Assembly (NCBI GenBank): GCA_963855995.1
Contig: OY979716.1
Location: 50,066,879-50,130,878 of the forward strand
Direction of reading: 5' to 3'
From: Muricea muricata
Taxonomy: Eukaryota; Cnidaria; Anthozoa; Malacalcyonacea; Plexauridae
DNA: 64,000 bases
Within the stretch, counting starts at the first letter, position 1; each line of letters opens with the position of its first letter. The notes under the pieces were generated by a model, which was not told the DNA's origin, searched no databases, and saw only the letters and a list, made by a program, of their open reading frames with translations. Made by a program: the position numbers and the translations under genes. Of the stretch, positions 10,989 to 58,675 are shown piece by piece.

Positions 10989-13900
10989 ATGGCGCATTTT
11001 AACTCGACATTCCACACAGCGAGTGGCGCACTTGCTACAGTTGGGATACGTCACGATCTGGGAGAAATCTCAGTACCACCAGTGACTCAGAAAGAGCAGA
11101 CATCTGCGAAGCAACGTCGCCTTTCTCGGCCCAACACAATTGAGGAAATTCGACGCAAAAGACGCAAAAGGAATATGAAGGAACGGGAGAAATACAAAAC
11201 AATGTCAAGAAAAGAAAAAAAATGTAAAAAAGAACGAAAAATACATGAAGCATTTACCCAACAAGAAGATAAGATAAAAAAGCTTGTCGTACGAGTACAC
11301 AAAGAAAGAAAACGTGCTGTTGATTTTTGGCGTCTGTGGGACAAGGAAAAGATGCTGCGTAGTGCAAGTACCATGTGAGTAATGTTACAAATACGTTAAA
11401 ATGTCTAACTGAAAATTATTATACCATTTACTTCACAATTATATGCAATGACCTATTGCAGTTTAAATCTGCCTCTCACCCAGAAAACTTCAGTTGACAT
11501 TCTAGGAAGGGTTGTTATGAAAAATGTAATTATCAGGGGAAGGGGTACAATCAAAACCCTTTGAGAGGCTGGAAAGAATAGGAACATTTCATAGGGGGTA
11601 GAAAGAATGGGGAAATTCCTATTTGTCAATACCAATCCCTTTTTAATACCAAATAAACCCACAAATTATGTCTTCAATACATGAAATCATTTCTCATTTT
11701 GCTGGTAGCGGCTACCATTGTACCCAACCCAATCTTTTATAAGTAACAGACAAGGAATTATTCAGAAACTGAAGCATTTGAATATTTGGTGGTTCACCAG
11801 CTTTTAAAAGTGAAAAAGGGTGCTGTTGAACAATACCAGGTCACAGTGGTGTAGCCAGCCTGACAATTTAGTCTTGCCATGCAAATTTCAAAGTATTATC
11901 ATTATTCATTTCTTTAGATATTGATTGTTTTCATAATCATTGAATATAAAAATATTTGCACAGCAGGACTAAATCGTCAGGCTGGTTACGCTACTGCCAG
12001 GTCAGTAATTGATATTGCTGCTATCACTGGTATTGATTACCAAGTATCCTGCATTGCAATTACTAAAAATTCAAAAGGGGGTGGAGATTACATCATAGAA
12101 TTTTGTCCATGTACACTCATTTTTAAAAAAGCCCTGTAGGAAATTTCCTAGGGGGAGAAGATTATACTGAGGATTAGTTTATTGTGCAACTTGCCTTTGG
12201 GGGTGTACACACAAAGGATTACTCCACAAGGGAGATGGGATTAAAATTGCAATAGCCCAATGTGCATTTAGTCCTGTTTAGAGCATGAAGAAATTTGCCA
12301 AATCCCTAGAGAAATTCCTGTCGTAACATTTCCTCATGTCAGCAAAAATATGTTTCAGACCATGGCATGATTGCTTGTCCTAATGATTTATTACAAGAGA
12401 TAGCTATTCAAAGGTATCAGTGCTAACCATTGGATTAATACAAACTGGTGTCATAAAGCTCATCAGTGTCTGATTCTAGTAATCAGCTCAGCACAATTTT
12501 AAAAACAAAAAATTGTTAATTGGTAATAAATGATAAATCTTTAGAATGTCTTATATAATTTAAGTTTAGCATGTAACAAATTGTGACAAAATGTCTCAAC
12601 AATACAAACCTGTGTGCCCGTGTGCTGTCAGAAGACTGCAAATCCTATTTCAGAGACCTAAATTTTAATCATTTCCTTGTGAATGCCCATATTAAAGACC
12701 TGGTCCTACTTGAGTTGTCTATGGTGGCCTATGAGTGCCATAACAATTACCACACTTTTTTACTATAAATTGTTACATTTTTATCACGTTTATAATAGTA
12801 TAAAATTATAAATTACAATTATTTGGTTTTACTTTATTGTAAATGAATTTTGTTTTGTTTTGTAAGAAACCTTTTAAGTTTTGTTTCGGTTTGGTTTCAG
12901 TTTTGTTTCGGTTTTGTTTTATATCAAATCAGTTCAGCTACCTTAAAAAATAAAACTGAACTAACCCATGGCCTATGAGTGCCATAGCCCGCAGTCGCGC
13001 GTGCCAAATATATGATGTACTATATGAAGTATGTCCTGTGACAAAATTGAGTCGAGCACCGATTCCCACGCGAGATACGGTATTTGTATTTCTATATTAT
13101 CAAATATTATCATATTTTAAAACACACTTCTGAAAGGTCTTTTCCTTTCATATCCCACAAAATAAGAATGTCGAAACGAAATTTCAAAGAGGATTTCGCA
13201 AAGTTCAAAGAGAGGGTGTCGAAAAAGAGGCGAAAAGAAGATACAACATCCAAATCAGATATGGAATATATTACAGTACAACGATTGTCCTCGCATGTTG
13301 AAGGAAGATATCAAAAGTATGCTAGGATTGGACCATTAGCAAGCGTTCCTCTCGGTCGGGAACCCACAATCCAGAATATTAAAGAGGCTTGCAAGCGCTA
13401 TTTCAACGTGGAAGATGGATCTAGCTGTGATGTACTAGCTGGGGAGAGAGGACCATCTTGGACGGAGACGAGCCAAATAAATAACTGGAAGGTAATCCAT
13501 ATCCGTTTCATTGAGGGCAGTGACGATAGCCAGTTGCGTGATGAAAAGCCGATAGATATCAGTTCCAGTCAACGGTGGAAATCTCAGGGAACCCCTACAA
13601 AAACAGCCCCTTCAAAGTCCACCAAAGTTGCTGCCTCTGTACCTCTTAGTGCTATGCTTAAACTTGGCAAAATAATTCAACCTACTGAGGAAATAGTTAC
13701 ATTGCAGCTTGAAGAATTCAAGATAAATGAAAAAGCGTGGGCTCAACCATTTGAAGTTACGCTTTCTCTTGCCAAAGAGAAATTTGCCAGTGGCGGTGTC
13801 AGAGATGCTTACATTGCTACCCCTTTGTCAGGCTTGAGTCCTGGAAAATATGTATTAAAGAAAGTCCAGGAACAAAAAGTCGATGAAATTGAAAAGCTGT

Positions 13901-16900
13901 TTAAGTCAATTGAAGAGCACACACGAAAAGCAGTGCAAATGAATGCACTAGTCAGAAACTTTTCTTTGACATTATCTAGTGAGGCACCAGTTGAATATGG
14001 GCAGGTCTTAAGTTACACAAAGGTTTACTTTGGGAAGCTTTATGGTGAGTTTGTAACATTAGAAGACTACCTGGAAGGCGAGTTCCAAAAATATGTCAAT
14101 AACACTGGGGAGATTTTTGGAAAAGGTGAATTAACTCTCAAGGGTGAGTCATTCTGTCACTATACCTATGAAAGGTCAGGACAGCAACTTATTGTCTTAG
14201 ACATTCAGGGAGTAGATCACAGTCTTTTTGACCCAGAAGTTGCCAGTTCAACTCTTATTGATTCTAGTGACAAGACAATCTTATTTTGCTGTGGCAACCT
14301 TTCTACAGATGCTATTGATAGGTTCAAGGAAGAACATGTTTGCAACAAATTTTGTCACATGCTTAAGCTAAATGAAATGTAGGCAATTTATAACCAAGTG
14401 TGAAACATGGAAAGACATTAACATACTTGAAAGAAAGAATATCTGTACATTGTTTACTTAACCTAAGGGGATTTTAACTGAAAGCAAACATTTTAAGGCT
14501 TTGTTTATTCTTGTTGCACCAAAATTGTTGAAATTTACAGCAGTATAGATGTCATCTGATAAAGATACATACTGTATTAAGGTAAATTTGTGGCCAGTAG
14601 TACCACAGACCAATTAATTTTTAACAATTTGCAGTTGGTGTATTGTAGTAGGTTGTATAAAACTTGGCTCAATTGCACAATTTTTTCCATCAAACTTTAT
14701 CACAAATATTATCACGAAACCTTGGTAATTATTGGGCACAAATTAGCAGTTATAAATATTGTGTTATGTGGTTCAAGTTTAATCTTTCATTGTTCAGATT
14801 TAACTTCAGTTTGTAAGATAAATAGAAATTTTAATGAAAAAAAAGGTCGATAAAATATTTTGTCTTAAAAAACATTCTCATCAACATTTGCCTTCAAGTA
14901 TAGGTAAGCATCCTTAGCATCATTTGGCTTGATTTCTTCTATTTTAGGTAAGTACTTTTCACATTCTTTACGAACAGCTGGTCTTAAGTAATCATCGTTA
15001 TGTTGCAAAACATCTGACAGCTCAGCAACCTCGAGCAGTTGTTCTTCTGTTATATCAATACCACATTGGTCACCACCATACTTCTCTGGAAACTGGAATA
15101 TGTGCTCTGGAACTCCTGTTGGCAGCTCTTTTCCTTTTTGTTTACGTGTCCTGTGATTGTTCCAAACACACTCACGAAAAACATCTAGCTCCCTTTGGAC
15201 AATTGGGATATATACATAGGCAAGTAGGTCACTACAAAAAGTTAAACAGGTTGTGTTTCTCAAAAATTTCAAGAACCACTGAGTATTTTTATAAATCAGG
15301 AATCAGGAGGATATCAGGAATAATCTCCTGACGATGACTAAAACTTAGTCGAAAGCTAGAAAATAAAAATGTTTATTTTTGGAGTTACCGTTGTTTTATA
15401 TTTTGTGTTTCTCCTTAGCTGCATGATTTTTTAGGTGTGGTGACGTATTTTCATATTTTACTGGGAGGGGCATGTGTTATCACTAAACACAGCTGCATGT
15501 AAAATGTAACTTATGCAGTTATCATACCGGTCATTTTGATCACTGGAATCGTAATCTCCACTTTCAACTAAGAATGTAAGTTGCTCTTTAAAAAAACGCT
15601 CCATTCTTTCCAGAAGCTCCCTCCACCATCTCTCAATCTTGTTTTGGGTGGATGGCCCATATAATATTGCATCTAATGGATCATCCAAATCACCATTTTT
15701 TTCTCTGAGGAAACAATGAATTGTGGTCATGACATCAGTTTCTGTCCCTCTGTCGACCCTCAATGTTTGTGGTAGAACTGAGAAAAATACACAATACAGC
15801 ATTTCATATATTATACATGCATGTATGAAGAAAGTATGATATTCTCACTTCAAGCTACTGTAGTGAGCCACCAGAGAAATAGCAAAATTATAAATAATGT
15901 AAAACAATACAACATCCTACCCCTAGACTTAAATAGGTACTCCAAGTAGAACCTTCCTATTACCAAAGGGTTATTGTTCGTTGTCCATACTCTGAGAAAA
16001 TTCATCCTACCACTATAAGTATCAAGGCCACCGTAAATGCACAAAGGAAACATAGACTTTTGATAGCCACAAAGCTTGTCCTGCCCATCCAAGGACATAG
16101 TACTGTTGGATCCCTGTTGATTAACAAAATCATAAAAAAATAATAAGCTAGCCTTCATGGTATAGTAAAAATGACCAAGAAAAATAAGACAAACTGATCT
16201 TGGAGCAACATTCTCAATAAGCATTCAAATGATTCAATAAGGCTCTTTATTAAGTAACATCTGCATTCCCCAGGTGGCTTTTATAACAGAGACCCCCCCC
16301 CCCATTTTATACAGTATTGCTACCCTGGGGACAAGAAAACTCTAAATCCCAACCCTAGGGAAATTTCAATTATTATCAATTGCCTGTAAAGCAATGACTT
16401 GTACAATGCAAAGAACAGAATCGTCAGAATATGCTTCCAGTTGTCAAAGGTCATGTATAAACAACATAGTTGACAGCCCAAATTCCTTGTGTTTGAACAA
16501 TAACGTTAGAACTTACTCCGCTCACAAATACGTTCGTTCTTCGTGGCCGTTTCGCCTTTCCAATTCCACCTCTAGATTTCAGTCCTTCTGGATCTGCTTC
16601 CCCCATCACAGCATAAACTAAATCGCGCGAGGCATTGAGCCCATGCACCTCTCTAACTTTCTGCTGCATTGCTCGATAACCCAAAAGAACACCTGGACCG
16701 TCTAACTCTTTTTTCACAGCTCTCTTTACGTCTTCCAAGTCAATTTCATAGTCCGTGTATTTGATGCCAAAGTGCTGAAGCCTACGACTTAAACTGCGAA
16801 TGCTCCATGCATACATGGGATAATGCACAATCATGAAATCTAAAATCTCTTCACGTCTTAAATTCTGCCGTACATATTTTTCAAGGTCTTGTCTCATCTC

Positions 16901-19013
16901 TTCATCATTTTCCCAATCGTTGTTTCTAATGCGTTCCGCAATATTTATAAAAGTGCTCCTGTGTGGATATACTTTATGTATGATATATTTGGCACGTGGG
17001 ACTGCGGGCTATGGCTATCTAATCTGTGCTATGGCACTCATAGGCCATGGGTTAGTTCAGTTTTATTTTTTAATGTAACTGAACTGATTTGATATAAAAC
17101 AAAACCGAAACAAAACTGAAACCAAACCAAAACAAAACTTAAAAGGTTTCTTACAAAACAAAACAAAATTCGTTTACAATAAAGTAAAACCAAATAATTG
17201 TAATTTATAATTTTATACTATTATGAACGTGATAAAAATGTAACAATTTATAGTAAAAAGGTGTGGTAATTGTTATGGCACTCATAGGCCACCATAGTTG
17301 TCCCTTTGGCACTTAAAAATTCAATAAAATGTATGTTCCAGCTGCTTGGTCATAAGCATGAAAAATGTCTTCAGAGATGTTGTTTAGATCATTTTATATA
17401 GTAATAGTGTTTACATCATACCAGTCAAGTGGTTAGCTAAGTGGCCACCAGGTGAATCAGAGGTAAAAATGCTTTGTTTGAATAATTTTAGAAACGTACA
17501 TCAGATTGAAAAGGAAAATATTGAAGATATTAATGAAGACATTGATGATTTGATTGGTGAAGGTAAATTTGGAACATGTATGAAAAAAGTGTATAGAGGC
17601 CATGTTGTTGCTGTGAAGTACTATAAAGAGAATTCCTTAGCATCAGATGTGGAGAAAGAAGCAATGATGATAAATACATTTGATCATCCAGGTGAATACT
17701 TAACATTGTCTCAGTCTCAATTCCAAAAAGAAAATGTATACTATGTTCATATTAACAACCAATCATCTTTCTTTTTATACATGCTAATGCCCTGGTGCTG
17801 CCTTGTGTAATTTGTTGCACTAGTTTCTAGCTTGTTCGTGCAAACAATAGTTCAAGGCCATCGGAAGCATATTGATATTGGGGGGCTGGCAACAGTAGAA
17901 ACCAGAATTATTATAAATCTGAATTAGGTTCACACTTTTCTAGTCTGGGTGTTTTGCTCTGCCTTAGAAAGATTGAAATTATTGGGAGGGGGGCTCAAGC
18001 TCAAGCCCCCCCCCCCCTCCCCCCAGCCCCCCACTTTTGATGGACTATTGGGACTGTTAGGCCAGGCAACTTTGCTTAGCAAGAGAAATTAATACTTATA
18101 AACATAAGTACTGTAAAGTAAAGTTAATAACAGTACAGTGATGGATCTAGAGCGTTAATTGGGGGGGGGGGGGTGCATATTCATATTATTCAGGTTCTGA
18201 CCGATTAATTTCTTTTGAAATAAGGTTGATTTCAAAAGAAATTGGTCGGGCAGAACCTGAATATATGAATATGCACCCTCTCAAATAATGCTCAAGATCC
18301 ACCTATGTAACAGTATAAGTACTGTACAGTACATTATTGAAATGCTAAATTTTAATGCTTCTTGATGGAGCCAGTGACTACACTCCATCCTATTTTTTCC
18401 TTTTGATTTGAAGCATGCTAAACAATGAACAATCAGTTAAGTACACACAGGGCCAGATATAGCATTAGGTCAAGAAATTAAACACTGAGAAATAAAATCA
18501 AAATCATGTGGCATTAAGTAAAATAATCTGGTGTTTGAAAGGGTCATATAGTAAAGTTGAGTATCTCAGGGTACTGTACATTCTGTACATGTACAGTGGG
18601 TTAAAATCTGTTTTACCAAAAGATTTTGTGTTTTAGGTTTACCATTTGTTTTTGGTATGAATGTGCAAAATAAGCCCTACATCCTTGTTACTGAATTTTA
18701 TGGAATTGATGGCCAATGTGTGACGTTAGCAAATGCTCTCAAGGGTAGGTTGACACTGAATGTATTACAATGGGCAGGCATATTGGGAAAAATATCTGAA
18801 GCTCTTTCTCATATCCACAGTAAAGGGTATATCCATGGTGATATAAAAAGTGACAATATTGTGATCAGAAGTGCATGTGGTTCATACATGCCCATAATAA
18901 TAGATTTTGGCAAAGCAAAAAAGTCTGGTGAGGCAAAAAAGTATAAACTGACTGAGAATGAAAAAGAGAAATACAGTAGAAAATACAAACACATTGCACC
19001 AGAAGTTGTGTAG
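10989..19013 (+). CDS. Coiled-coil protein kinase, copy 1 (C-lobe lost)
   Basis: Exons 10989-11374, 17492-17691 and 18637-19013 join in phase. Residues 1-128 are basic and coiled-coil (RRKRRKRNMKEREKYK, ERKRAVDFWRLWDKEKM). The kinase domain starts near 145: GEGKFG loop at 151-156, VAVK lysine K171, HGDIKSDN catalytic loop at 262-269 (HGD for HRD), DFG at 285-287, APE at 316-318. A TAG at 19011-19013 (codon 321) stops the protein two codons after APE. Sequence past 19049 is replaced by the next block copy, so subdomains IX-XI are absent. The divergent neighbour is the coiled-coil gene; intron 1 holds a hAT MITE and the integrase/alpha-kinase element, intron 2 a second MITE. The family resembles multi-copy cnidarian kinases with HIAPEVV motifs. 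Probably not an active kinase in this copy. Confidence 0.75.
11844..11996. mobile_element. hAT-type MITE in kinase intron 1, copy 1
   Basis: 153 bp. The left end CAGTGGTGTAGCCAGCCTGA pairs with the right end CAGGCTGGTTACGCTACTG. Perfect 8-bp duplications CCAGGTCA lie at 11836-11843 and 11997-12004. The CAGTGGxGTAGCCAGCC ends are typical of hAT MITEs. Confidence 0.9.
12720..13036. repeat. Left TIR of IS3EU-like element, copy 1
   Basis: Matches the reverse complement of about 16964-17296 almost throughout, with a T/G-rich middle (GTTTTGTTTCGGTTTTG). The outermost GGCCTATGAGTGCCATA (12726-12742) recurs in the same orientation at 12970-12986, so each TIR contains a second copy of its own tip. 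The inner end reaches into the alpha-kinase 5' region. Confidence 0.85.
13168..14382 (+). CDS. Alpha-kinase (MHCK/eEF2K/TRPM7-type), transposon-borne, copy 1
   Basis: 404 aa in one exon from the ATG at 13168; the in-frame extension upstream has no earlier ATG. The N-terminus is basic with a nuclear-localisation-like SKKRRKED (about 18-25). Residues 30-180 match nothing I know. The alpha-kinase domain spans about 185-402: FASGGVRDAY (206-215), lysine pair VLKKV (231-232), YLEGEFQKYVNNTG (301-314), LDIQGVDHSLFDPEV (344-358) with D345 and Q347, and CGNLSTDAI. Zinc ligands by the TRPM7 pattern are all present: H331, H390, C392, C396 (HVCNKFC). Every key catalytic and structural residue I can place is kept, so it is probably an active Ser/Thr kinase, nuclear if the NLS is real. 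The target is unknown. It converges with the integrase 483 bp downstream. Confidence 0.85.
   Translation: MSKRNFKEDFAKFKERVSKKRRKEDTTSKSDMEYITVQRLSSHVEGRYQKYARIGPLASVPLGREPTIQNIKEACKRYFNVEDGSSCDVLAGERGPSWTETSQINNWKVIHIRFIEGSDDSQLRDEKPIDISSSQRWKSQGTPTKTAPSKSTKVAASVPLSAMLKLGKIIQPTEEIVTLQLEEFKINEKAWAQPFEVTLSLAKEKFASGGVRDAYIATPLSGLSPGKYVLKKVQEQKVDEIEKLFKSIEEHTRKAVQMNALVRNFSLTLSSEAPVEYGQVLSYTKVYFGKLYGEFVTLEDYLEGEFQKYVNNTGEIFGKGELTLKGESFCHYTYERSGQQLIVLDIQGVDHSLFDPEVASSTLIDSSDKTILFCCGNLSTDAIDRFKEEHVCNKFCHMLKLNEM
14865..16942 (-). CDS. DDE integrase/transposase of the IS3EU-like element, copy 1 (start codon lost)
   Basis: Exons 16942-16517, 16113-15921, 15777-15528 and 15231-14865 have GT-AG borders and matching phases, 412 codons with stop. 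The N-terminal helical region (ILDFMIVHYPMYAWSIRSLS, about 33-52) looks like the HTH of this integrase-core family, then GLNASRDLVYAVMGEADPEG. The catalytic core has D151 (SLDGQDK), D215 (RVDRGTET) and E255 (TQNKIERWWREL), i.e. a complete DDE triad, followed by LLAYVYIPIVQRELDVF and FPEKYGGDQCG. It should insert the element by a cut-and-paste, integrase-like reaction in the nucleus. In this copy ATG at 16940-16942 is ATT. The next in-frame Met (residue 16) is at 16897 and keeps all recognised domains. Confidence 0.85.
18136..18307. mobile_element. hAT-type MITE in kinase intron 2, copy 1
   Basis: 172-bp foldback starting CAGTGATGGATCTAGAG and ending CTCAAGATCCACCTATG. The central arms (GTGCATATTCATA...TTCAGGTTCTG) pair almost perfectly. 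Perfect 8-bp duplications TAACAGTA lie at 18128-18135 and 18308-18315. It contains a G-run that varies in length between copies. Confidence 0.85.
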
Positions 19014-22467: not shown

Positions 22468-25400
22468 ATGGCGCATTTTAACTCGACATTCCACACAGCG
22501 AGTGGCGCACTTGCTACAGTTGGGATACGTCACGATCTGGGAGAAATCTCAGTACCACCAGTGACTCAGAAAGAGCAGACATCTGCGAAGCAACGTCGCC
22601 TTTCTCGGCCCAACACAATTGAGGAAATTCGACGCAAAAGACGCAAAAGGAATATGAAGGAACGGGAGAAATACAAAACAATGTCAAGAAAAGAAAAAAA
22701 ATGTAAAAAAGAACGAAAAATACATGAAGCATTTACCCAACAAGAAGATAAGATAAAAAAGCTTGTCGTACGAGTACACAAAGAAAGAAAACGTGCTGTT
22801 GATTTTTGGCGTCTGTGGGACAAGGAAAAGATGCTGCGTAGTGCAAGTACCATGTGAGTAATGTTACAAATACGTTAAAATGTCTAACTGAAAATTATTA
22901 TACCATTTACTTCACAATTATATGCAATGACCTATTGCAGTTTAAATCTGCCTCTCACCCAGAAAACTTCAGTTGACATTCTAGGAAGGGTTGTTATGAA
23001 AAATGTAATTATCAGGGGAAGGGGTACAATCAAAACCCTTTGAGAGGCTGGAAAGAATAGGAACATTTCATAGGGGGTAGAAAGAATGGGGAAATTCCTA
23101 TTTGTCAATACCAATCCCTTTTTAATACCAAATAAACCCACAAATTATGTCTTCAATACATGAAATCATTTCTCATTTTGCTGGTAGCGGCTACCATTGT
23201 ACCCAACCCAATCTTTTATAAGTAACAGACAAGGAATTATTCAGAAACTGAAGCATTTGAATATTTGGTGGTTCACCAGCTTTTAAAAGTGAAAAAGGGT
23301 GCTGTTGAACAATACCAGGTCACAGTGGTGTAGCCAGCCTGACAATTTAGTCTTGCCATGCAAATTTCAAAGTATTATCATTATTCATTTCTTTAGATAT
23401 TGATTGTTTTCATAATCATTGAATATAAAAATATTTGCACAGCAGGACTAAATCGTCAGGCTGGTTACGCTACTGCCAGGTCAGTAATTGATATTGCTGC
23501 TATCACTGGTATTGATTACCAAGTATCCTGCATTGCAATTACTAAAAATTCAAAAGGGGGTGGAGATTACATCATAGAATTTTGTCCATGTACACTCATT
23601 TTTAAAAAAGCCCTGTAGGAAATTTCCTAGGGGGAGAAGATTATACTGAGGATTAGTTTATTGTGCAACTTGCCTTTGGGGGTGTACACACAAAGGATTA
23701 CTCCACAAGGGAGATGGGATTAAAATTGCAATAGCCCAATGTGCATTTAGTCCTGTTTAGAGCATGAAGAAATTTGCCAAATCCCTAGAGAAATTCCTGT
23801 CGTAACATTTCCTCATGTCAGCAAAAATATGTTTCAGACCATGGCATGATTGCTTGTCCTAATGATTTATTACAAGAGATAGCTATTCAAAGGTATCAGT
23901 GCTAACCATTGGATTAATACAAACTGGTGTCATAAAGCTCATCAGTGTCTGATTCTAGTAATCAGCTCAGCACAATTTTAAAAACAAAAAATTGTTAATT
24001 GGTAATAAATGATAAATCTTTAGAATGTCTTATATAATTTAAGTTTAGCATGTAACAAATTGTGACAAAATGTCTCAACAATACAAACCTGTGTGCCCGT
24101 GTGCTGTCAGAAGACTGCAAATCCTATTTCAGAGACCTAAATTTTAATCATTTCCTTGTGAATGCCCATATTAAAGACCTGGTCCTACTTGAGTTGTCTA
24201 TGGTGGCCTATGAGTGCCATAACAATTACCACACTTTTTTACTATAAATTGTTACATTTTTATCACGTTTATAATAGTATAAAATTATAAATTACAATTA
24301 TTTGGTTTTACTTTATTGTAAATGAATTTTGTTTTGTTTTGTAAGAAACCTTTTAAGTTTTGTTTCGGTTTGGTTTCAGTTTTGTTTCGGTTTTGTTTTA
24401 TATCAAATCAGTTCAGCTACCTTAAAAAATAAAACTGAACTAACCCATGGCCTATGAGTGCCATAGCCCGCAGTCGCGCGTGCCAAATATATGATGTACT
24501 ATATGAAGTATGTCCTGTGACAAAATTGAGTCGAGCACCGATTCCCACGCGAGATACGGTATTTGTATTTCTATATTATCAAATATTATCATATTTTAAA
24601 ACACACTTCTGAAAGGTCTTTTCCTTTCATATCCCACAAAATAAGAATGTCGAAACGAAATTTCAAAGAGGATTTCGCAAAGTTCAAAGAGAGGGTGTCG
24701 AAAAAGAGGCGAAAAGAAGATACAACATCCAAATCAGATATGGAATATATTACAGTACAACGATTGTCCTCGCATGTTGAAGGAAGATATCAAAAGTATG
24801 CTAGGATTGGACCATTAGCAAGCGTTCCTCTCGGTCGGGAACCCACAATCCAGAATATTAAAGAGGCTTGCAAGCGCTATTTCAACGTGGAAGATGGATC
24901 TAGCTGTGATGTACTAGCTGGGGAGAGAGGACCATCTTGGACGGAGACGAGCCAAATAAATAACTGGAAGGTAATCCATATCCGTTTCATTGAGGGCAGT
25001 GACGATAGCCAGTTGCGTGATGAAAAGCCGATAGATATCAGTTCCAGTCAACGGTGGAAATCTCAGGGAACCCCTACAAAAACAGCCCCTTCAAAGTCCA
25101 CCAAAGTTGCTGCCTCTGTACCTCTTAGTGCTATGCTTAAACTTGGCAAAATAATTCAACCTACTGAGGAAATAGTTACATTGCAGCTTGAAGAATTCAA
25201 GATAAATGAAAAAGCGTGGGCTCAACCATTTGAAGTTACGCTTTCTCTTGCCAAAGAGAAATTTGCCAGTGGCGGTGTCAGAGATGCTTACATTGCTACC
25301 CCTTTGTCAGGCTTGAGTCCTGGAAAATATGTATTAAAGAAAGTCCAGGAACAAAAAGTCGATGAAATTGAAAAGCTGTTTAAGTCAATTGAAGAGCACA

Positions 25401-28400
25401 CACGAAAAGCAGTGCAAATGAATGCACTAGTCAGAAACTTTTCTTTGACATTATCTAGTGAGGCACCAGTTGAATATGGGCAGGTCTTAAGTTACACAAA
25501 GGTTTACTTTGGGAAGCTTTATGGTGAGTTTGTAACATTAGAAGACTACCTGGAAGGCGAGTTCCAAAAATATGTCAATAACACTGGGGAGATTTTTGGA
25601 AAAGGTGAATTAACTCTCAAGGGTGAGTCATTCTGTCACTATACCTATGAAAGGTCAGGACAGCAACTTATTGTCTTAGACATTCAGGGAGTAGATCACA
25701 GTCTTTTTGACCCAGAAGTTGCCAGTTCAACTCTTATTGATTCTAGTGACAAGACAATCTTATTTTGCTGTGGCAACCTTTCTACAGATGCTATTGATAG
25801 GTTCAAGGAAGAACATGTTTGCAACAAATTTTGTCACATGCTTAAGCTAAATGAAATGTAGGCAATTTATAACCAAGTGTGAAACATGGAAAGACATTAA
25901 CATACTTGAAAGAAAGAATATCTGTACATTGTTTACTTAACCTAAGGGGATTTTAACTGAAAGCAAACATTTTAAGGCTTTGTTTATTCTTGTTGCACCA
26001 AAATTGTTGAAATTTACAGCAGTATAGATGTCATCTGATAAAGATACATACTGTATTAAGGTAAATTTGTGTCCAGTAGTACCACAGACCAATTAATTTT
26101 TAACAATTTGCAGTTGGTGTATTGTAGTAGGTTGTATAAAACTTGGCTCAATTGCACAATTTTTTCCATCAAACTTTATCACAAATATTATCACGAAACC
26201 TTGGTAATTATTGGGCACAAATTAGCAGTTATAAATATTGTGTTATGTGGTTCAAGTTTAATCTTTCATTGTTCAGATTTAACTTCAGTTTGTAAGATAA
26301 ATAGAAATTTTAATGAAAAAAAAGGTCGATAAAATATTTTGTCTTAAAAAACATTCTCATCAACATTTGCCTTCAAGTATAGGTAAGCATCCTTAGCATC
26401 ATTTGGCTTGATTTCTTCTATTTTAGGTAAGTACTTTTCACATTCTTTACGAACAGCTGGTCTTAAGTAATCATCGTTATGTTGCAAAACATCTGACAGC
26501 TCAGCAACCTCGAGCAGTTGTTCTTCTGTTATATCAATACCACATTGGTCACCACCATACTTCTCTGGAAACTGGAATATGTGCTCTGGAACTCCTGTTG
26601 GCAGCTCTTTTCCTTTTTGTTTACGTGTCCTGTGATTGTTCCAAACACACTCACGAAAAACATCTAGCTCCCTTTGGACAATTGGGATATATACATAGGC
26701 AAGTAGGTCACTACAAAAAGTTAAACAGGTTGTGTTTCTCAAAAATTTCAAGAACCACTGAGTATTTTTATAAATCAGGAATCAGGAGGATATCAGGAAT
26801 AATCTCCTGACGATGACTAAAACTTAGTCGAAAGCTAGAAAATAAAAATGTTTATTTTTGGAGTTACCGTTGTTTTATATTTTGTGTTTCTCCTTAGCTG
26901 CATGATTTTTTAGGTGTGGTGACGTATTTTCATATTTTACTGGGAGGGGCATGTGTTATCACTAAACACAGCTGCATGTAAAATGTAACTTATGCAGTTA
27001 TCATACCGGTCATTTTGATCACTGGAATCGTAATCTCCACTTTCAACTAAGAATGTAAGTTGCTCTTTAAAAAAACGCTCCATTCTTTCCAGAAGCTCCC
27101 TCCACCATCTCTCAATCTTGTTTTGGGTGGATGGCCCATATAATATTGCATCTAATGGATCATCCAAATCACCATTTTTTTCTCTGAGGAAACAATGAAT
27201 TGTGGTCATGACATCAGTTTCTGTCCCTCTGTCGACCCTCAATGTTTGTGGTAGAACTGAGAAAAATACACAATACAGCATTTCATATATTATACATGCA
27301 TGTATGAAGAAAGTATGATATTCTCACTTCAAGCTACTGTAGTGAGCCACCAGAGAAATAGCAAAATTATAAATAATGTAAAACAATACAACATCCTACC
27401 CCTAGACTTAAATAGGTACTCCAAGTAGAACCTTCCTATTACCAAAGGGTTATTGTTCGTTGTCCATACTCTGAGAAAATTCATCCTACCACTATAAGTA
27501 TCAAGGCCACCGTAAATGCACAAAGGAAACATAGACTTTTGATAGCCACAAAGCTTGTCCTGCCCATCCAAGGACATAGTACTGTTGGATCCCTGTTGAT
27601 TAACAAAATCATAAAAAAATAATAAGCTAGCCTTCATGGTATAGTAAAAATGACCAAGAAAAATAAGACAAACTGATCTTGGAGCAACATTCTCAATAAG
27701 CATTCAAATGATTCAATAAGGCTCTTTATTAAGTAACATCTGCATTCCCCAGGTGGCTTTTATAACAGAGACCCCCCCCCCCATTTTATACAGTATTGCT
27801 ACCCTGGGGACAAGAAAACTCTAAATCCCAACCCTAGGGAAATTTCAATTATTATCAATTGCCTGTAAAGCAATGACTTGTACAATGCAAAGAACAGAAT
27901 CGTCAGAATATGCTTCCAGTTGTCAAAGGTCATGTATAAACAACATAGTTGACAGCCCAAATTCCTTGTGTTTGAACAATAACGTTAGAACTTACTCCGC
28001 TCACAAATACGTTCGTTCTTCGTGGCCGTTTCGCCTTTCCAATTCCACCTCTAGATTTCAGTCCTTCTGGATCTGCTTCCCCCATCACAGCATAAACTAA
28101 ATCGCGCGAGGCATTGAGCCCATGCACCTCTCTAACTTTCTGCTGCATTGCTCGATAACCCAAAAGAACACCTGGACCGTCTAACTCTTTTTTCACAGCT
28201 CTCTTTACGTCTTCCAAGTCAATTTCATAGTCCGTGTATTTGATGCCAAAGTGCTGAAGCCTACGACTTAAACTGCGAATGCTCCATGCATACATGGGAT
28301 AATGCACAATCATGAAATCTAAAATCTCTTCACGTCTTAAATTCTGCCGTACATATTTTTCAAGGTCTTGTCTCATCTCTTCATCATTTTCCCAATCGTT

Positions 28401-30494
28401 GTTTCTAATGCGTTCCGCCATATTTATAAAAGTGCTCCTGTGTGGATATACTTTATGTATGATATATTTGGCACGTGGGACTGCGGGCTATGGCTATCTA
28501 ATCTGTGCTATGGCACTCATAGGCCATGGGTTAGTTCAGTTTTATTTTTTAATGTAACTGAACTGATTTGATATAAAACAAAACCGAAACAAAACTGAAA
28601 CCAAACCAAAACAAAACTTAAAAGGTTTCTTACAAAACAAAACAAAATTCGTTTACAATAAAGTAAAACCAAATAATTGTAATTTATAATTTTATACTAT
28701 TATGAACGTGATAAAAATGTAACAATTTATAGTAAAAAGGTGTGGTAATTGTTATGGCACTCATAGGCCACCATAGTTGTCCCTTTGGCACTTAAAAATT
28801 CAATAAAATGTATGTTCCAGCTGCTTGGTCATAAGCATGAAAAATGTCTTCAGAGATGTTGTTTAGATCATTTTATATAGTAATAGTGTTTACATCATAC
28901 CAGTCAAGTGGTTAGCTAAGTGGCCACCAGGTGAATCAGAGGTAAAAATGCTTTGTTTGAATAATTTTAGAAACGTACATCAGATTGAAAAGGAAAATAT
29001 TGAAGATATTAATGAAGACATTGATGATTTGATTGGTGAAGGTAAATTTGGAACATGTATGAAAAAAGTGTATAGAGGCCATGTTGTTGCTGTGAAGTAC
29101 TATAAAGAGAATTCCTTAGCATCAGATGTGGAGAAAGAAGCAATGATGATAAATACATTTGATCATCCAGGTGAATACTTAACATTGTCTCAGTCTCAAT
29201 TCCAAAAAGAAAATGTATACTATGTTCATATTAACAACCAATCATCTTTCTTTTTATACATGCTAATGCCCTGGTGCTGCCTTGTGTAATTTGTTGCACT
29301 AGTTTCTAGCTTGTTCGTGCAAACAATAGTTCAAGGCCATCGGAAGCATATTGATATTGGGGGGCTGGCAACAGTAGAAACCAGAATTATTATAAATCTG
29401 AATTAGGTTCACACTTTTCTAGTCTGGGTGTTTTGCTCTGCCTTAGAAAGATTGAAATTATTGGGAGGGGGGCTCAAGCTCAAGCCCCCCCCCCCCCCTC
29501 CCCCCAGCCCCCCACTTTTGATGGACTATTGGGACTGTTAGGCCAGGCAACTTTGCTTAGCAAGAGAAATTAATACTTATAAACATAAGTACTGTAAAGT
29601 AAAGTTAATAACAGTACAGTGATGGATCTAGAGCGTTAATTGGGGGGGGGGGGGTGCATATTCATATTATTCAGGTTCTGACCGATTAATTTCTTTTGAA
29701 ATAAGGTTGATTTCAAAAGAAATTGGTCGGGCAGAACCTGAATATATGAATATGCACCCTCTCAAATAATGCTCAAGATCCACCTATGTAACAGTATAAG
29801 TACTGTACAGTACATTATTGAAATGCTAAATTTTAATGCTTCTTGATGGAGCCAGTGACTACACTCCATCCTATTTTTTCCTTTTGATTTGAAGCATGCT
29901 AAACAATGAACAATCAGTTAAGTACACACAGGGCCAGATATAGCATTAGGTCAAGAAATTAAACACTGAGAAATAAAATCAAAATCATGTGGCATTAAGT
30001 AAAATAATCTGGTGTTTGAAAGGGTCATATAGTAAAGTTGAGTATCTCAGGGTACTGTACATTCTGTACATGTACAGTGGGTTAAAATCTGTTTTACCAA
30101 AAGATTTTGTGTTTTAGGTTTACCATTTGTTTTTGGTATGAATGTGCAAAATAAGCCCTACATCCTTGTTACTGAATTTTATGGAATTGATGGCCAATGT
30201 GTGACGTTAGCAAATGCTCTCAAGGGTAGGTTGACACTGAATGTATTACAATGGGCAGGCATATTGGGAAAAATATCTGAAGCTCTTTCTCATATCCACA
30301 GTAAAGGGTATATCCATGGTGATATAAAAAGTGACAATATTGTGATCAGAAGTGCATGTGGTTCATACATGCCCATAATAATAGATTTTGGCAAAGCAAA
30401 AAAGTCTGGTGAGGCAAAAAAGTATAAACTGACTGAGAATGAAAAAGAGAAATACAGTAGAAAATACAAACACATTGCACCAGAAGTTGTGTAG
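22468..30494 (+). CDS. Coiled-coil protein kinase, copy 2 (C-lobe lost)
   Basis: Exons 22468-22853, 28971-29170 and 30118-30494. The product is identical to copy 1, including intact GEGKFG, VAVK, HGDIKSDN, DFG and the TAG after APE. The block ends 36 bp after the stop, so the sequence coding for the rest of the C-lobe is absent. Confidence 0.7.
23323..23475. mobile_element. hAT-type MITE, intron 1, copy 2
   Basis: Same 153-bp insertion and same CCAGGTCA duplications as at 11844-11996, so it was present before the block was duplicated. Confidence 0.9.
24647..25861 (+). CDS. Alpha-kinase, copy 2
   Basis: Protein identical to the copy 1 product (404 aa, ATG at 24647), with all catalytic and zinc-binding residues kept. 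Confidence 0.85.
   Translation: MSKRNFKEDFAKFKERVSKKRRKEDTTSKSDMEYITVQRLSSHVEGRYQKYARIGPLASVPLGREPTIQNIKEACKRYFNVEDGSSCDVLAGERGPSWTETSQINNWKVIHIRFIEGSDDSQLRDEKPIDISSSQRWKSQGTPTKTAPSKSTKVAASVPLSAMLKLGKIIQPTEEIVTLQLEEFKINEKAWAQPFEVTLSLAKEKFASGGVRDAYIATPLSGLSPGKYVLKKVQEQKVDEIEKLFKSIEEHTRKAVQMNALVRNFSLTLSSEAPVEYGQVLSYTKVYFGKLYGEFVTLEDYLEGEFQKYVNNTGEIFGKGELTLKGESFCHYTYERSGQQLIVLDIQGVDHSLFDPEVASSTLIDSSDKTILFCCGNLSTDAIDRFKEEHVCNKFCHMLKLNEM
26344..28421 (-). CDS. DDE integrase, copy 2 (intact)
   Basis: Exons 28421-27996, 27592-27400, 27256-27007 and 26710-26344. The ATG at 28421 opens MAERIRNNDWENDEEMRQDL and the predicted product is 411 aa with D151, D215 and E255. This is the reference intact form of the gene in the window. 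Confidence 0.88.
29617..29788. mobile_element. hAT-type MITE, intron 2, copy 2
   Basis: Same insertion as at 18136-18307 with TAACAGTA on both sides (29609-29616 and 29789-29796). Confidence 0.85.
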
Positions 30495-34956: not shown

Positions 34957-36127
34957 CCAGGTCAGTAATTGATATTGCTGCTATCACTGGTATTGATTAC
35001 CAAGTATCCTGCATTGCAATTACTAAAAATTCAAAAGGGGGTGGAGATTACATCATAGAATTTTGTCCATGTACACTCATTTTTAAAAAAGCCCTGTAGG
35101 AAATTTCCTAGGGGGAGAAGATTATACTGAGGATTAGTTTATTGTGCAACTTGCCTTTGGGGGTGTACACACAAAGGATTACTCCACAAGGGAGATGGGA
35201 TTAAAATTGCAATAGCCCAATGTGCATTTAGTCCTGTTTAGAGCATGAAGAAATTTGCCAAATCCCTAGAGAAATTCCTGTCGTAACATTTCCTCATGTC
35301 AGCAAAAATATGTTTCAGACCATGGCATGATTGCTTGTCCTAATGATTTATTACAAGAGATAGCTATTCAAAGGTATCAGTGCTAACCATTGGATTAATA
35401 CAAACTGGTGTCATAAAGCTCATCAGTGTCTGATTCTAGTAATCAGCTCAGCACAATTTTAAAAACAAAAAATTGTTAATTGGTAATAAATGATAAATCT
35501 TTAGAATGTCTTATATAATTTAAGTTTAGCATGTAACAAATTGTGACAAAATGTCTCAACAATACAAACCTGTGTGCCCGTGTGCTGTCAGAAGACTGCA
35601 AATCCTATTTCAGAGACCTAAATTTTAATCATTTCCTTGTGAATGCCCATATTAAAGACCTGGTCCTACTTGAGTTGTCTATGGTGGCCTATGAGTGCCA
35701 TAACAATTACCACACTTTTTTACTATAAATTGTTACATTTTTATCACGTTTATAATAGTATAAAATTATAAATTACAATTATTTGGTTTTACTTTATTGT
35801 AAATGAATTTTGTTTTGTTTTGTAAGAAACCTTTTAAGTTTTGTTTGGGTTTGGTTTCAGTTTTGTTTCGGTTTTGTTTTATATCAAATCAGTTCAGCTA
35901 CCTTAAAAAATAAAACTGAACTAACCCATGGCCTATGAGTGCCATAGCCCGCAGTCGCGCGTGCCAAATATATGATGTACTATATGAAGTATGTCCTGTG
36001 ACAAAATTGAGTCGAGCACCGATTCCCACGCGAGATACGGTATTTGTATTTCTATATTATCAAATATTATCATATTTTAAAACACACTTCTGAAAGGTCT
36101 TTTCCTTTCATATCCCACAAAATAAGA

Positions 36128-37342
36128 ATGTCGAAACGAAATTTCAAAGAGGATTTCGCAAAGTTCAAAGAGAGGGTGTCGAAAAAGAGGCGAAAAGAAG
36201 ATACAACATCCAAATCAGATATGGAATATATTACAGTACAACGATTGTCCTCGCATGTTGAAGGAAGATATCAAAAGTATGCTAGGATTGGACCATTAGC
36301 AAGCGTTCCTCTCGGTCGGGAACCCACAATCCAGAATATTAAAGAGGCTTGCAAGCGCTATTTCAACGTGGAAGATGGATCTAGCTGTGATGTACTAGCT
36401 GGGGAGAGAGGACCATCTTGGACGGAGACGAGCCAAATAAATAACTGGAAGGTAATCCATATCCGTTTCATTGAGGGCAGTGACGATAGCCAGTTGCGTG
36501 ATGAAAAGCCGATAGATATCAGTTCCAGTCAACGGTGGAAATCTCAGGGAACCCCTACAAAAACAGCCCCTTCAAAGTCCACCAAAGTTGCTGCCTCTGT
36601 ACCTCTTAGTGCTATGCTTAAACTTGGCAAAATAATTCAACCTACTGAGGAAATAGTTACATTGCAGCTTGAAGAATTCAAGATAAATGAAAAAGCGTGG
36701 GCTCAACCATTTGAAGTTACGCTTTCTCTTGCCAAAGAGAAATTTGCCAGTGGCGGTGTCAGAGATGCTTACATTGCTACCCCTTTGTCAGGCTTGAGTC
36801 CTGGAAAATATGTATTAAAGAAAGTCCAGGAACAAAAAGTCGATGAAATTGAAAAGCTGTTTAAGTCAATTGAAGAGCACACACGAAAAGCAGTGCAAAT
36901 GAATGCACTAGTCAGAAACTTTTCTTTGACATTATCTAGTGAGGCACCAGTTGAATATGGGCAGGTCTTAAGTTACACAAAGGTTTACTTTGGGAAGCTT
37001 TATGGTGAGTTTGTAACATTAGAAGACTACCTGGAAGGCGAGTTCCAAAAATATGTCAATAACACTGGGGAGATTTTTGGAAAAGGTGAATTAACTCTCA
37101 AGGGTGAGTCATTCTGTCACTATACCTATGAAAGGTCAGGACAGCAACTTATTGTCTTAGACATTCAGGGAGTAGATCACAGTCTTTTTGACCCAGAAGT
37201 TGCCAGTTCAACTCTTATTGATTCTAGTGACAAGACAATCTTATTTTGCTGTGGCAACCTTTCTACAGATGCTATTGATAGGTTCAAGGAAGAACATGTT
37301 TGCAACAAATTTTGTCACATGCTTAAGCTAAATGAAATGTAG
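36128..37342 (+). CDS. Alpha-kinase, copy 3
   Basis: 404 aa from the ATG at 36128, product identical to copies 1 and 2. Convergent with the integrase ending at 37825. Confidence 0.85.
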   Translation: MSKRNFKEDFAKFKERVSKKRRKEDTTSKSDMEYITVQRLSSHVEGRYQKYARIGPLASVPLGREPTIQNIKEACKRYFNVEDGSSCDVLAGERGPSWTETSQINNWKVIHIRFIEGSDDSQLRDEKPIDISSSQRWKSQGTPTKTAPSKSTKVAASVPLSAMLKLGKIIQPTEEIVTLQLEEFKINEKAWAQPFEVTLSLAKEKFASGGVRDAYIATPLSGLSPGKYVLKKVQEQKVDEIEKLFKSIEEHTRKAVQMNALVRNFSLTLSSEAPVEYGQVLSYTKVYFGKLYGEFVTLEDYLEGEFQKYVNNTGEIFGKGELTLKGESFCHYTYERSGQQLIVLDIQGVDHSLFDPEVASSTLIDSSDKTILFCCGNLSTDAIDRFKEEHVCNKFCHMLKLNEM

Positions 37343-37824
37343 GCAATTTATAACCAAGTGTGAAACATGGAAAGACATTAACATACTTGAAAGAAAGAAT
37401 ATCTGTACATTGTTTACTTAACCTAAGGGGATTTTAACTGAAAGCAAACATTTTAAGGCTTTGTTTATTCTTGTTGCACCAAAATTGTTGAAATTTACAG
37501 CAGTATAGATGTCATCTGATAAAGATACATACTGTATTAAGGTAAATTTGTGTCCAGTAGTACCACAGACCAATTAATTTTTAACAATTTGCAGTTGGTG
37601 TATTGTAGTAGGTTGTATAAAACTTGGCTCAATTGCACAATTTTTTCCATCAAACTTTATCACAAATATTATCACGAAACCTTGGTAATTATTGGGCACA
37701 AATTAGCAGTTATAAATATTGTGTTATGTGGTTCAAGTTTAATCTTTCATTGTTCAGATTTAACTTCAGTTTGTAAGATAAATAGAAATTTTAATGAAAA
37801 AAAAGGTCAATAAAATATTTTGTC

Positions 37825-39901
37825 TTAAAAAACATTCTCATCAACATTTGCCTTCAAGTATAGGTAAGCATCCTTAGCATCATTTGGCTTGATTTCTTCT
37901 ATTTTAGGTAAGTACTTTTCACATTCTTTACGAACAGCTGGTCTTAAGTAATCATCGTTATGTTGCAAAACATCTGACAGCTCAGCAACCTCGAGCAGTT
38001 GTTCTTCTGTTATATCAATACCACATTGGTCACCACCATACTTCTCTGGAAACTGGAATATGTGCTCTGGAACTCCTGTTGGCAGCTCTTTTCCTTTTTG
38101 TTTACGTGTCCTGTGATTGTTCCAAACACACTCACGAAAAACATCTAGCTCCCTTTGGACAATTGGGATATATACATAGGCAAGTAGGTCACTACAAAAA
38201 GTTAAACAGGTTGTGTTTCTCAAAAATTTCAAGAACCACTGAGTATTTTTATAAATCAGGAATCAGGAGGATATCAGGAATAATCTCCTGACGATGACTA
38301 AAACTTAGTCGAAAGCTAGAAAATAAAAATGTTTATTTTTGGAGTTACCGTTGTTTTATATTTTGTGTTTCTCCTTAGCTGCATGATTTTTTAGGTGTGG
38401 TGACGTATTTTCATATTTTACTGGGAGGGGCATGTGTTATCACTAAACACAGCTGCATGTAAAATGTAACTTATGCAGTTATCATACCGGTCATTTTGAT
38501 CACTGGAATCATAATCTCCACTTTCAACTAAGAATGTAAGTTGCTCTTTAAAAAAACGCTCCATTCTTTCCAGAAGCTCCCTCCACCATCTCTCAATCTT
38601 GTTTTGGGTGGATGGCCCATATAATATTGCATCTAATGGATCATCCAAATCACCATTTTTTTCTCTGAGGAAACAATGAATTGTGGTCATGACATCAGTT
38701 TCTGTCCCTCTGTCGACCCTCAATGTTTGTGGTAGAACTGAGAAAAATACACAATACAGCATTTCATATATTATACATGCATGTATGAAGAAAGTATGAT
38801 ATTCTCACTTCAAGCTACTGTAGTGAGCCACCAGAGAAATAGCAAAATTATAAATAATGTAAAACAATACATCCTACCCCTAGACTTAAATAGGTACTCC
38901 AAGTAGAACCTTCCTATTACCAAAGGGTTATTGTTCGTTGTCCATACTCTGAGAAAATTCATCCTACCACTATAAGTATCAAGGCCACCGTAAATGCACA
39001 AAGGAAACATAGACTTTTGATAGCCACAAAGCTTGTCCTGCCCATCCAAGGACATAGTACTGTTGGATCCCTGTTGATTAACAAAATTATAAAAAAATAA
39101 TAAGCTAGCCTTCATGGTATAGTAAAAATGACCAAGAAAAATAAGACAAACTGATCTTGGAGCAACATTCTCAATAAGCATTCAAATGATTCAATAAGGC
39201 TCTTTATTAAGTAACATCTGCATTCCCCAGGTGGCTTTTATAACAGAGACCCCCCCCCCCCCATTTTATACAGTATTGCTACCCTGGGGACAAGAAAACT
39301 CTAAATCCCAACCCTAGGGAAATTTCAATTATTATCAATTGCCTGTAAAGCAATGACTTGTACAATGCAAAGAACAGAATCGTCAGAATATGCTTCCAGT
39401 TGTCAAAGGTCATGTATAAACAACATAGTTGACAGCCCAAATTCCTTGTGTTTGAACAATAACGTTAGAACTTACTCCGCTCACAAATACGTTCGTTCTT
39501 CGTGGCCGTTTCGCCTTTCCAATTCCACCTCTAGATTTCAGTCCTTCTGGATCTGCTTCCCCCATCACAGCATAAACTAAATCGCGCGAGGCATTGAGCC
39601 CATGCACCTCTCTAACTTTCTGCTGCATTGCTCGATAACCCAAAAGAACACCTGGACCGTCTAACTCTTTTTTCACAGCTCTCTTTACGTCTTCCAAGTC
39701 AATTTCATAGTCCGTGTATTTGATGCCAAAGTGCTGAAGCCTACGACTTAAACTGCGAATGCTCCATGCATACATGGGATAATGCACAATCATGAAATCT
39801 AAAATCTCTTCACGTCTTAAATTCTGCCGTACATATTTTTCAAGGTCTTGTCTCATCTCTTCATCATTTTCCCAATCGTTGTTTCTAATGCGTTCCGCCA
39901 T
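37825..39901 (-). CDS. DDE integrase, copy 3 (intact)
   Basis: Exons 39901-39476, 39070-38878, 38737-38488 and 38191-37825. The 3-bp deletion lies in intron 2 and leaves the GTAGGA donor intact. The ATG and the DDE triad are as in copy 2. Confidence 0.87.
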
Positions 39902-41096
39902 ATTTATAAAAGTGCTCCTGTGTGGATATACTTTATGTATGATATATTTGGCACGTGGGACTGCGGGCTATGGCTATCTAATCTGTGCTATGGCACTCAT
40001 AGGCCATGGGTTAGTTCAGTTTTATTTTTTAATGTAACTGAACTGATTTGATATAAAACAAAACCGAAACAAAACTGAAACCAAACCAAAACAAAACTTA
40101 AAAGGTTTCTTACAAAACAAAACAAAATTCGTTTACAATAAAGTAAAACCAAATAATTGTAATTTATAATTTTATACTATTATGAACGTGATAAAAATGT
40201 AACAATTTATAGTAAAAAGGTGTGGTAATTGTTATGGCACTCATAGGCCACCATAGTTGTCCCTTTGGCACTTAAAAATTCAATAAAATGTATGTTCCAG
40301 CTGCTTGGTCATAAGCATGAAAAATGTCTTCAGAGATGTTGTTTAGATCATTTTATATAGTAATAGTGTTTACATCATACCAGTCAAGTGGTTAGCTAAG
40401 TGGCCACCAGGTGAATCAGAGGTAAAAATGCTTTGTTTGAATAATTTTAGAAACGTACATCAGATTGAAAAGGAAAATATTGAAGATATTAATGAAGACA
40501 TTGATGATTTGATTGGTGAAGGTAAATTTGGAACATGTATGAAAAAAGTGTATAGAGGCCATGTTGTTGCTGTGAAGTACTATAAAGAGAATTCCTTAGC
40601 ATCAGATGTGGAGAAAGAAGCAATGATGATAAATACATTTGATCATCCAGGTGAATACTTAACATTGTCTCAGTCTCAATTCCAAAAAGAAAATGTATAC
40701 TATGTTCATATTAACAACCAATCATCTTTCTTTTTATACATGCTAATGCCCTGGTGCTGCCTTGTGTAATTTGTTGCACTAGTTTCTAGCTTGTTCGTGC
40801 AAACAATAGTTCAAGGCCATCGGAAGCATATTGATATTGGGGGGCTGGCAACAGTAGAAACCAGAATTATTATAAATCTGAATTAGGTTCACACTTTTCT
40901 AGTCTGGGTGTTTTGCTCTGCCTTAGAAAGATTGAAATTATTGGGAGGGGGGCTCAAGCTCAAGCCCCCCCCCCCCCCTCCCCCCAGCCCCCCACTTTTG
41001 ATGGACTATTGGGACTGTTAGGCCAGGCAACTTTGCTTAGCAAGAGAAATTAATACTTATAAACATAAGTACTGTAAAGTAAAGTTAATAACAGTA

Positions 41097-53509: not shown

Positions 53510-53665
53510 AATGCGGACTACGGATTGTGGACTGTGGACTCAGACTGCGGACTCGGACTGCGGTCTCGGACTGCAGATTCTGATTGCAGACTCGGACTAC
53601 GGATTCAGACTGCGGACTACGGATGGCGGACTACGGATTGCAGATCGCAGATTACGGAAAATCGG
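53510..53665. repeat. Minisatellite in left MULE TIR
   Basis: Tandem variants of a 6- to 12-bp unit, GCGGACTCGGACT / TGTGGACTACGGATT type. The inverted counterpart is at about 59305-59418 with a different unit number. Both arrays produce spurious ORFs. Confidence 0.85.
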
Positions 53666-54146
53666 AGTGCGGCGTGCACAATTTTATTTTGACTACATCT
53701 CAACATAAATTTCTGTTTTTTTATGTAAACATATGTATTTCAAACACAAATGGAGTTTCAATACTTAAATTTTTTTAACGAACTGTTATTTCCAACACTT
53801 AGTAATTGGATAGTATGTACCGCCCATGCTTGTATAATATAGCTAATTAGTACCATGAAAATACTCTTTCTCACAGACAGTGGAGTTATCAGCCATTTCG
53901 GGTATACCATGTATAGATTTCAACTCAAAATTATGGATGCGAAACTTGTATGCTGATACAGAATAAATAAAAATAGTCAACACATGCAACTTAAAATAGC
54001 TAAATTGCTAAATTTCGTAAAACGCGAGTGAACAATTAATGTTTGTTCATATCCAACAGTAACATAATATCAACAACAATCCGACACCAGCCATTGACAT
54101 AAGGTTCTAGCAGCAGCCAGTGTTTTTAAATTATTTGCTTGTTGTG

Positions 54147-56400: not shown

Positions 56401-56483
56401 GAAAGCTTTCTTTCGGTCGTTTACTTGTTTCTTACTTTAACCAAGAAGACGATATATATGTATATATGTATATATATATATCA

Positions 56484-56712
56484 TCATATATATTAATCAC
56501 GAGCTGAAATATAAACCTCCAACCTCAACTAATGTATCTAGCACTGCCCAAAATAAGAAACGACTAAGAAACATCACCTGGTACAACCCTTCGTACAGTA
56601 AAAACGTCGCCACAAACATCGGCCGTACCTTCCTCAAAATACGTGACGAAGAATTCCTGGATAGTCACGTCCTACATAAAGTTTTTAATAGAAACACTGT
56701 GAAAGTAATATA
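56484..56712 (+). pseudogene. Penelope-like retroelement fragment
   Basis: An open stretch with KKRLRNITWYNPSYSKNVAT, then NIGRTFLKIRDEEF, HVLHKVFNRNTVKV. This matches the conserved RNIxWFNPPYSxNVxTNIG region that precedes the GIY-YIG domain in Penelope-like elements, from memory of the family. An AT-dinucleotide run (56450-56490) precedes it, and the Tc1-like insertion cuts it at 56720. Confidence 0.6.
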
Positions 56713-56720
56713 TATGTATA

Positions 56721-58591: not shown

Positions 58592-58675
58592 TGCACGCAC
58601 GCACGCACGCTCGCATGCACGCACGCCCGCACGCAGACACGCACGCAGACACGCACGCTCGCACGCAGACACGTT
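58592..58675. repeat. GCAC/CGCAGACA microsatellite
   Basis: Tandem CGCACGCACGCTCGCA-type repeats directly at the right end of the Tc1-like element, inside the MULE. Confidence 0.85.

Follow-up and report, generated by a model that had tools for sequence, protein, structure and literature searches.

A complete DNA transposon, very probably of the IS3EU type, with an alpha-kinase gene as a standard part in the anthozoan Muricea muricata

In a 64,000-nucleotide stretch of contig OY979716.1 of Muricea muricata (assembly GCA_963855995.1; this whole stretch is called the window), an alpha-kinase gene lies next to a DDE transposase gene between matching inverted repeats. This locus raises the question of whether the kinase is a working part of a mobile element or a host gene enclosed by one. 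To our knowledge, it is rare for a protein kinase to be the standing partner of a transposase.

The window contains an intact, complete DNA transposon of 4577 bp, which runs from 12720 (TATGG) to 17296 (CCATA) and is flanked by perfect 6-bp duplications of GTTGTC (Table 1). A reading of the locus from its sequence only had given these bounds almost to the base, together with terminal inverted repeats (TIRs) of about 320–330 bp; the TIRs are real and slightly shorter (left ∼297 nt, right ∼317 nt), with arms that match over 270 nt at 98% and then over 36 nt at 92%. Each TIR holds two copies of an 18-mer, TGGCCTATGAGTGCCATA, spaced 244 bp apart. The window has 12 matches to this 18-mer against 0.01 expected, because it contains three copies of the element within a tandem unit, rather than three insertions. 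Gene models place only two genes between the TIRs, an alpha-kinase and a DDE transposase in convergent orientation, as had been proposed.

Table 1. Positions in the window of the element, its genes and its tandem copies.
Feature	Position	Strand	Basis
Target site duplication GTTGTC, left	12714..12719		flank reading
Left TIR, TATGG end (270-nt block and 36-nt continuation)	12720..13016	+	inverted repeats
18-mer TGGCCTATGAGTGCCATA, outer left copy, putative transposase site	12725..12742	+	motif count
18-mer TGGCCTATGAGTGCCATA, inner left copy	12969..12986	+	motif count
Alpha-kinase gene, one exon, 404 aa	13168..14382	+	PF02816 profile match
Transposase exon 4, with stop	14865..15231	-	inferred splice sites; PF24764 below cut-off
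Transposase exon 3 (D200, E240)	15528..15777	-	inferred splice sites; PF24764 below cut-off
Transposase exon 2 (D136)	15921..16113	-	inferred splice sites
Transposase exon 1 (N-terminal helical region)	16517..16897	-	inferred splice sites; weak HTH_32/HTH_21
Right TIR, CCATA end	16980..17296	-	inverted repeats
18-mer TGGCCTATGAGTGCCATA, inner right copy	17030..17047	-	motif count
18-mer TGGCCTATGAGTGCCATA, outer right copy	17274..17291	-	motif count
Target site duplication GTTGTC, right	17297..17302		flank reading
Second copy of the insertion (tandem segmental duplicate)	24199..28775	+	self-comparison
Third copy of the insertion (tandem segmental duplicate)	35680..40255	+	self-comparison

The kinase reading frame matches PF02816 (Alpha_kinase) with an E-value of 9.5e-29, scoring 101.2 bits against a curated cut-off of 21.3, and a structure search with its predicted structure returns the alpha-kinase fold. 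The zinc ligands H331, H390, C392 and C396 and the D-x-Q pair (D345, Q347) are all present where the sequence-only reading had placed them. In an alignment of the window protein with 67 near-full-length proteins among 120 matches listed, K231, H331, D345, G348 and N377 are invariant over all 68, while Q347, H390, C392 and C396 are conserved at ≥ 90%. By its sequence the protein is therefore a member of the alpha-kinase family, and catalytic activity is predicted. It shares the domain, zinc ligands and D-x-Q pair with myosin heavy chain kinase A, TRPM7 and eEF2K, although identity to these is 22–29% and confined to the kinase domain.

The alpha-kinase domain occupies residues ∼173–404 and is preceded by an N-terminal basic helix and a small, conserved alpha/beta domain (residues ∼32–115). 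The N-terminal part has no sequence relative in the PDB and no Pfam match above cut-off. A Foldseek search with the kinase model gave a weak row to LC3A (E 6.6e-3), and in a second structure comparison most rows span 173–404 only. The LC3A row, obtained with the model of the whole protein and listed with no aligned range, is a hint that this domain may be ubiquitin-like. Most of the kinase's named relatives are anthozoan (Oculina, Exaiptasia, Acropora, Actinostola, Dendronephthya), and several anthozoan records in this family (P0006, P0012, P0023, P0077, P0251, P0294) are annotated as TRPM6, myosin heavy chain kinase or eEF2K. These are probably misnamed transposon genes; the element suggests that coral and anemone genes bearing such names within this family belong to transposons.

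The spliced transposase, with three introns placed from the sequence, would have 396 aa and carries D136, D200 and E240, so that by sequence it is an integrase-like protein of DD39E type. The catalytic triad seen earlier (as D151, D215, E255) is real, with its positions shifted by 15. Exon 1 probably encodes a DNA-binding region, given the weak HTH_32/HTH_21 matches and the model of a relative, P0128; a structure search with this relative found an integrase/TnsB/IstA-like fold. Taken singly, two of the window exons match rva_4 (PF24764) below the cut-off only, and all four full-length relatives scanned match it with E-values of 6.4e-19 to 1.5e-22. The best named match is in the soft coral Xenia (85%). 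In 54 aligned relatives, the part ahead of the core (D149) has no invariant cysteine and a single histidine (H100) conserved at ≥ 90%, and we conclude from this that an HHCC motif is absent there. Elsewhere in the window, 261–758 encodes the C-terminal part of an rva_4 integrase of a different type (E 1.8e-20).

Evidence on whether the two genes belong together comes from the rest of the assembly (453 Mb, 74 contigs). Three further insertions of the window family lie on the same contig, at 34.25, 38.37 and 82.65 Mb, with target site duplications (TSDs) GATGTC, GTGTTC and GAACTG. They are 99.2–99.4% identical, and such identity at different sites argues for recent movement of the family. Each carries the kinase sequence and all four transposase exons; at 38.37 Mb (L010) the kinase frame is shifted. 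The genome has at least 117 matches to the kinase (103 of 316 candidates were scored), and at least 24 of these places are free of stops across ≥ 380 residues; the window family accounts for 10 of the 24, of which 8 lie in two arrays.

DNA was read around the best 30 of the at least 117 kinase places, so that the elements described here were all found from the kinase side. Seventeen of the 30 (L032–L048) are neither intact copies of the window family nor one of its two best decayed relatives, and at 13 of them a transposase lies convergent beside the kinase. At L034, L044 and L047 the surrounding ∼7 kb that was read showed no transposase, nor did L037, a deletion derivative of the window family; at L036 only the N-terminal half is present. 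Ten diverged elements could be read to both ends (L032, L033, L035, L036, L040, L042, L043, L045, L046, L048), and each has TIRs and convergent kinase and transposase genes, the transposase of L036 being the partial one. Their TIRs align over 238 to 438 nt, the block of L048 running ∼26 nt past its ends, and their kinases are ∼36–53% identical to that of the window. L033 and L035 represent one family at different sites, and L040, L042 and L043 likewise another.

Six of the ten have perfect 6-bp TSDs (CTGATG, CAACAC, CTGCTC, GTTCTG, CTGGTG, GTACAG), two, L040 and L036, have 7-bp TSDs (CAATGTG, CACCCCC), L035 has a 5/6 match and L045 is ambiguous; for L048 and L036 the reading was done by eye. 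The tally over 14 elements is thus 10 perfect 6-bp TSDs, two of 7 bp, one with a mismatch and one ambiguous, and 13 of the 14 have TATGG..CCATA ends, L036 ending in CCTTA. Outside this tally stand L012 (decayed, right end not read), L013 and L014 (one insertion, duplicated), L015–L017 (short, rearranged or other), L018 (the insertion of the window), L034, L044 and L047 (one end only), and L037–L039 and L041 (not read to both ends).

The two genes also appear to have diverged together. Among representatives of seven families, distances between kinases track those between transposases (Mantel r 0.885, with 12 of 5040 permutations as high), and with another anchor the correlation is 0.742 (13 of 5040). 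Between families, the intact kinases differ at far more synonymous (pS 0.735–0.88) than nonsynonymous sites (pN 0.32–0.45), in 30 of 45 pairs from ten kinases chosen because their frames are open, where L040–L044 are near-copies and the pairs hence non-independent; synonymous sites are saturated, so all that can be said of the ratio is that it is low. Close comparisons, resting on few changes, tell little about constraint: the pair L033–L035 has dN/dS 0.80, and copies of the window family have 0.27–0.53 from two to three differences. Decayed copies (L012, L013, L014, L017) have 0.52–0.70, which is presumably mostly neutral decay; we therefore do not count it as support and use the open-frame kinases instead. 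On this evidence the intact kinases look constrained.

The pairing reaches beyond this genome. A comparison of 191 kinase and 111 transposase rows from other sources found nine shared-contig matches; four were below 10 kb, where coincidence is possible, and were not counted. In the other five the two matches share an apparent contig of ≥ 10 kb: three are from Exaiptasia, one, weaker, from a 12-Mb record of the tunicate Ciona, and one from a further source. Consecutive gene numbers mark two further pairs (gene13470/13471 and Seg1936.5/.6). No relative of either protein was found in viral contigs.

The sequence-only reading took the kinase for part of the element, to be checked by its co-occurrence with the integrase at independent loci and by purifying selection. 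Both checks came out in its favour, the first through three insertions of the family and ten diverged elements with differing TSDs, the second through the excess of synonymous over nonsynonymous differences between families. Because kinase and transposase occur together inside matching TIRs at independent loci with different TSDs, and because intact kinases look constrained, sequence comparison indicates that the kinase is a standard, co-inherited part of the element and not cargo, in a pairing that is real and old, at loci sampled through the kinase. The many intact families in one genome should make the role of the kinase testable.

What this role might be can be outlined from the layout of the element. 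In the gene models the transposase gene and the kinase gene each begin close to one of the two TIRs, on its inner side, and converge; these TIRs being nearly identical, each gene is probably driven from its own. The transposase would very probably bind the outer and inner family-specific 18-mers of each TIR and insert the element with a 6-bp stagger, as the duplications indicate. The kinase may be an accessory factor that acts for the element in the nucleus, a location suggested by its N-terminus, which is basic and conserved in the 68-protein consensus. As a first guess, we tentatively propose the transposase or the DNA-bound complex as its substrate, with phosphorylation licensing or timing transposition.

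We rank a host target close behind, as a somewhat less favoured possibility: the kinase might be an anti-silencing gene or otherwise act on silencing, small-RNA, chromatin or repair proteins, and thereby on expression or break repair. The sequence-only reading had likewise named the integrase and host repair or chromatin proteins as targets, and these remain speculative. The basic N-terminus would suit a host target as a sign of nuclear work. In fungi, every TET+ family of IS3EU transposons has transposase and alpha-kinase genes in opposite orientation with a TET/JBP gene in the middle, and this gene is proposed to aid escape from silencing, according to the available part of PMC12730594; accessory genes directed against the host thus occur in this group. 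Against this, no host target of the kinase is known, and its co-descent with the transposase fits a transposase substrate equally. Phosphorylation of the transposase or its complex remains our first guess.

The fungal elements also bear on the class of the transposon. The sequence-only reading knew of no described class that encodes an alpha-kinase, a claim overtaken by the statement of one for the TET+ IS3EU families in the part of PMC12730594 available, and a new class cannot be upheld because the element agrees with IS3EU in its ends, its TSD and the order of its genes. That source gives 6-bp TSDs and TAYGG..CCRTA ends for IS3EU; the window element has a 6-bp TSD, TATGG..CCATA ends, an integrase-like DDE transposase with no HHCC motif and, as stated there for the TET+ fungal families only, a kinase gene opposite the transposase. 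It differs from these families, so far as they are described there, in its animal host, in the lack of a TET/JBP gene between its two genes and in its TIRs, ∼300 bp as against > 30 bp for IS3EU. IS3EU, a Repbase superfamily from 2013 onwards, has TA..TA ends and TSDs of usually 6 bp, and forms one lineage with GingerRoot (PMC10045372, available part). GingerRoot, compared by description only, is known there from clubmoss and resembles the window element in its 6-bp TSDs and mostly TA..TA ends; a word search of the accessible text finds no mention of a kinase. For Styx of Zymoseptoria, an origin from a two-protein IS3EU element is reported; the portion of PMC10853768 at hand describes it with four ORFs and names no alpha-kinase among them.

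We are confident that the window element is a complete, recently mobile transposon of IS3EU (IS3EU/GingerRoot) type with the kinase as a standard part, a placement based on ends, TSD and gene order. It is improbable that it belongs instead to Ginger1/Ginger2 or another integrase-like superfamily. The catalytic core is integrase-like, which leaves some room for this view, but Ginger elements have TSDs of ∼4–5 bp, whereas a 6-bp TSD and TATGG..CCATA ends fit IS3EU, and no HHCC motif precedes the core among the 54 relatives. Within the IS3EU placement, what is new here are the animal families, the conserved N-terminal kinase domain, the paired family-specific sites in the TIRs and the co-descent of the two genes. 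A literature search by title and start of abstract found no such element described in animals; Repbase may contain animal entries that include a kinase.

A bolder and rather unlikely proposal is that IS3EU elements of animals and fungi inherited a two-protein machine from a common ancestor: a transposase and, as its obligate regulator, a transposon-specific alpha-kinase bearing an N-terminal, perhaps ubiquitin-like, adaptor, so that transposition would be phosphorylation-gated. Alpha-kinases are highly expanded in rust fungi (PMC4469406, part available), for which such elements may offer a source; if the proposal held, it would explain the expansions in both rust fungi and corals as transposon genes.

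It is very improbable that the kinase is a host gene carried as a passenger, captured once or a few times, with no role in transposition. Transposons do capture genes, and the short deletion derivatives L013, L014 and L017 retain kinase sequence without a transposase. Nevertheless, families with as little as ∼36% kinase identity have the same gene in the same orientation and position, the kinase is constrained and has diverged with the transposase, and pairs are found in other cnidarians and in one tunicate record. A single capture is rejected in view of the diverged elements, the constraint and the co-divergence. The kinase as a standard part of the element accounts for these observations.

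That the structure is an artefact of tandem repeats or assembly, or chance inverted repeats around two host genes, is hardly credible, since despite the near-identity of the tandem copies in the window the element also lies at the three other sites, whose different flanks and TSDs refute a tandem artefact, and in the ten diverged elements.

The window region 7569–42012 consists of three tandem units of 11.48 kb that are 99.85–99.9% identical, and because all three element copies sit within this duplication they represent one insertion. A second, inverted array ∼330 kb away, at 49.70–49.75 Mb of the same contig, contains another five copies; the one read to both ends has the flanks and duplication of the window copy in reverse complement. 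The tandem and second-array copies therefore say nothing about independent transposition. The tandem units and the inverted array may reflect recent amplification or a feature of the assembly. Just to the right of the element, within the tandem unit, ORFs at 17469–19013 resemble, by eye, a Ser/Thr protein kinase gene.

Further along the window, two pairs of inverted repeats (53546–54105/58766–59415 and 56720–56989/58291–58592; 87–93%) surround ORFs, one of which, within 53546–59415, appears helix-turn-helix-like by eye, and this may be another DNA transposon. At 61407–62618, an ORF that by eye resembles a reverse transcriptase is probably part of a LINE.
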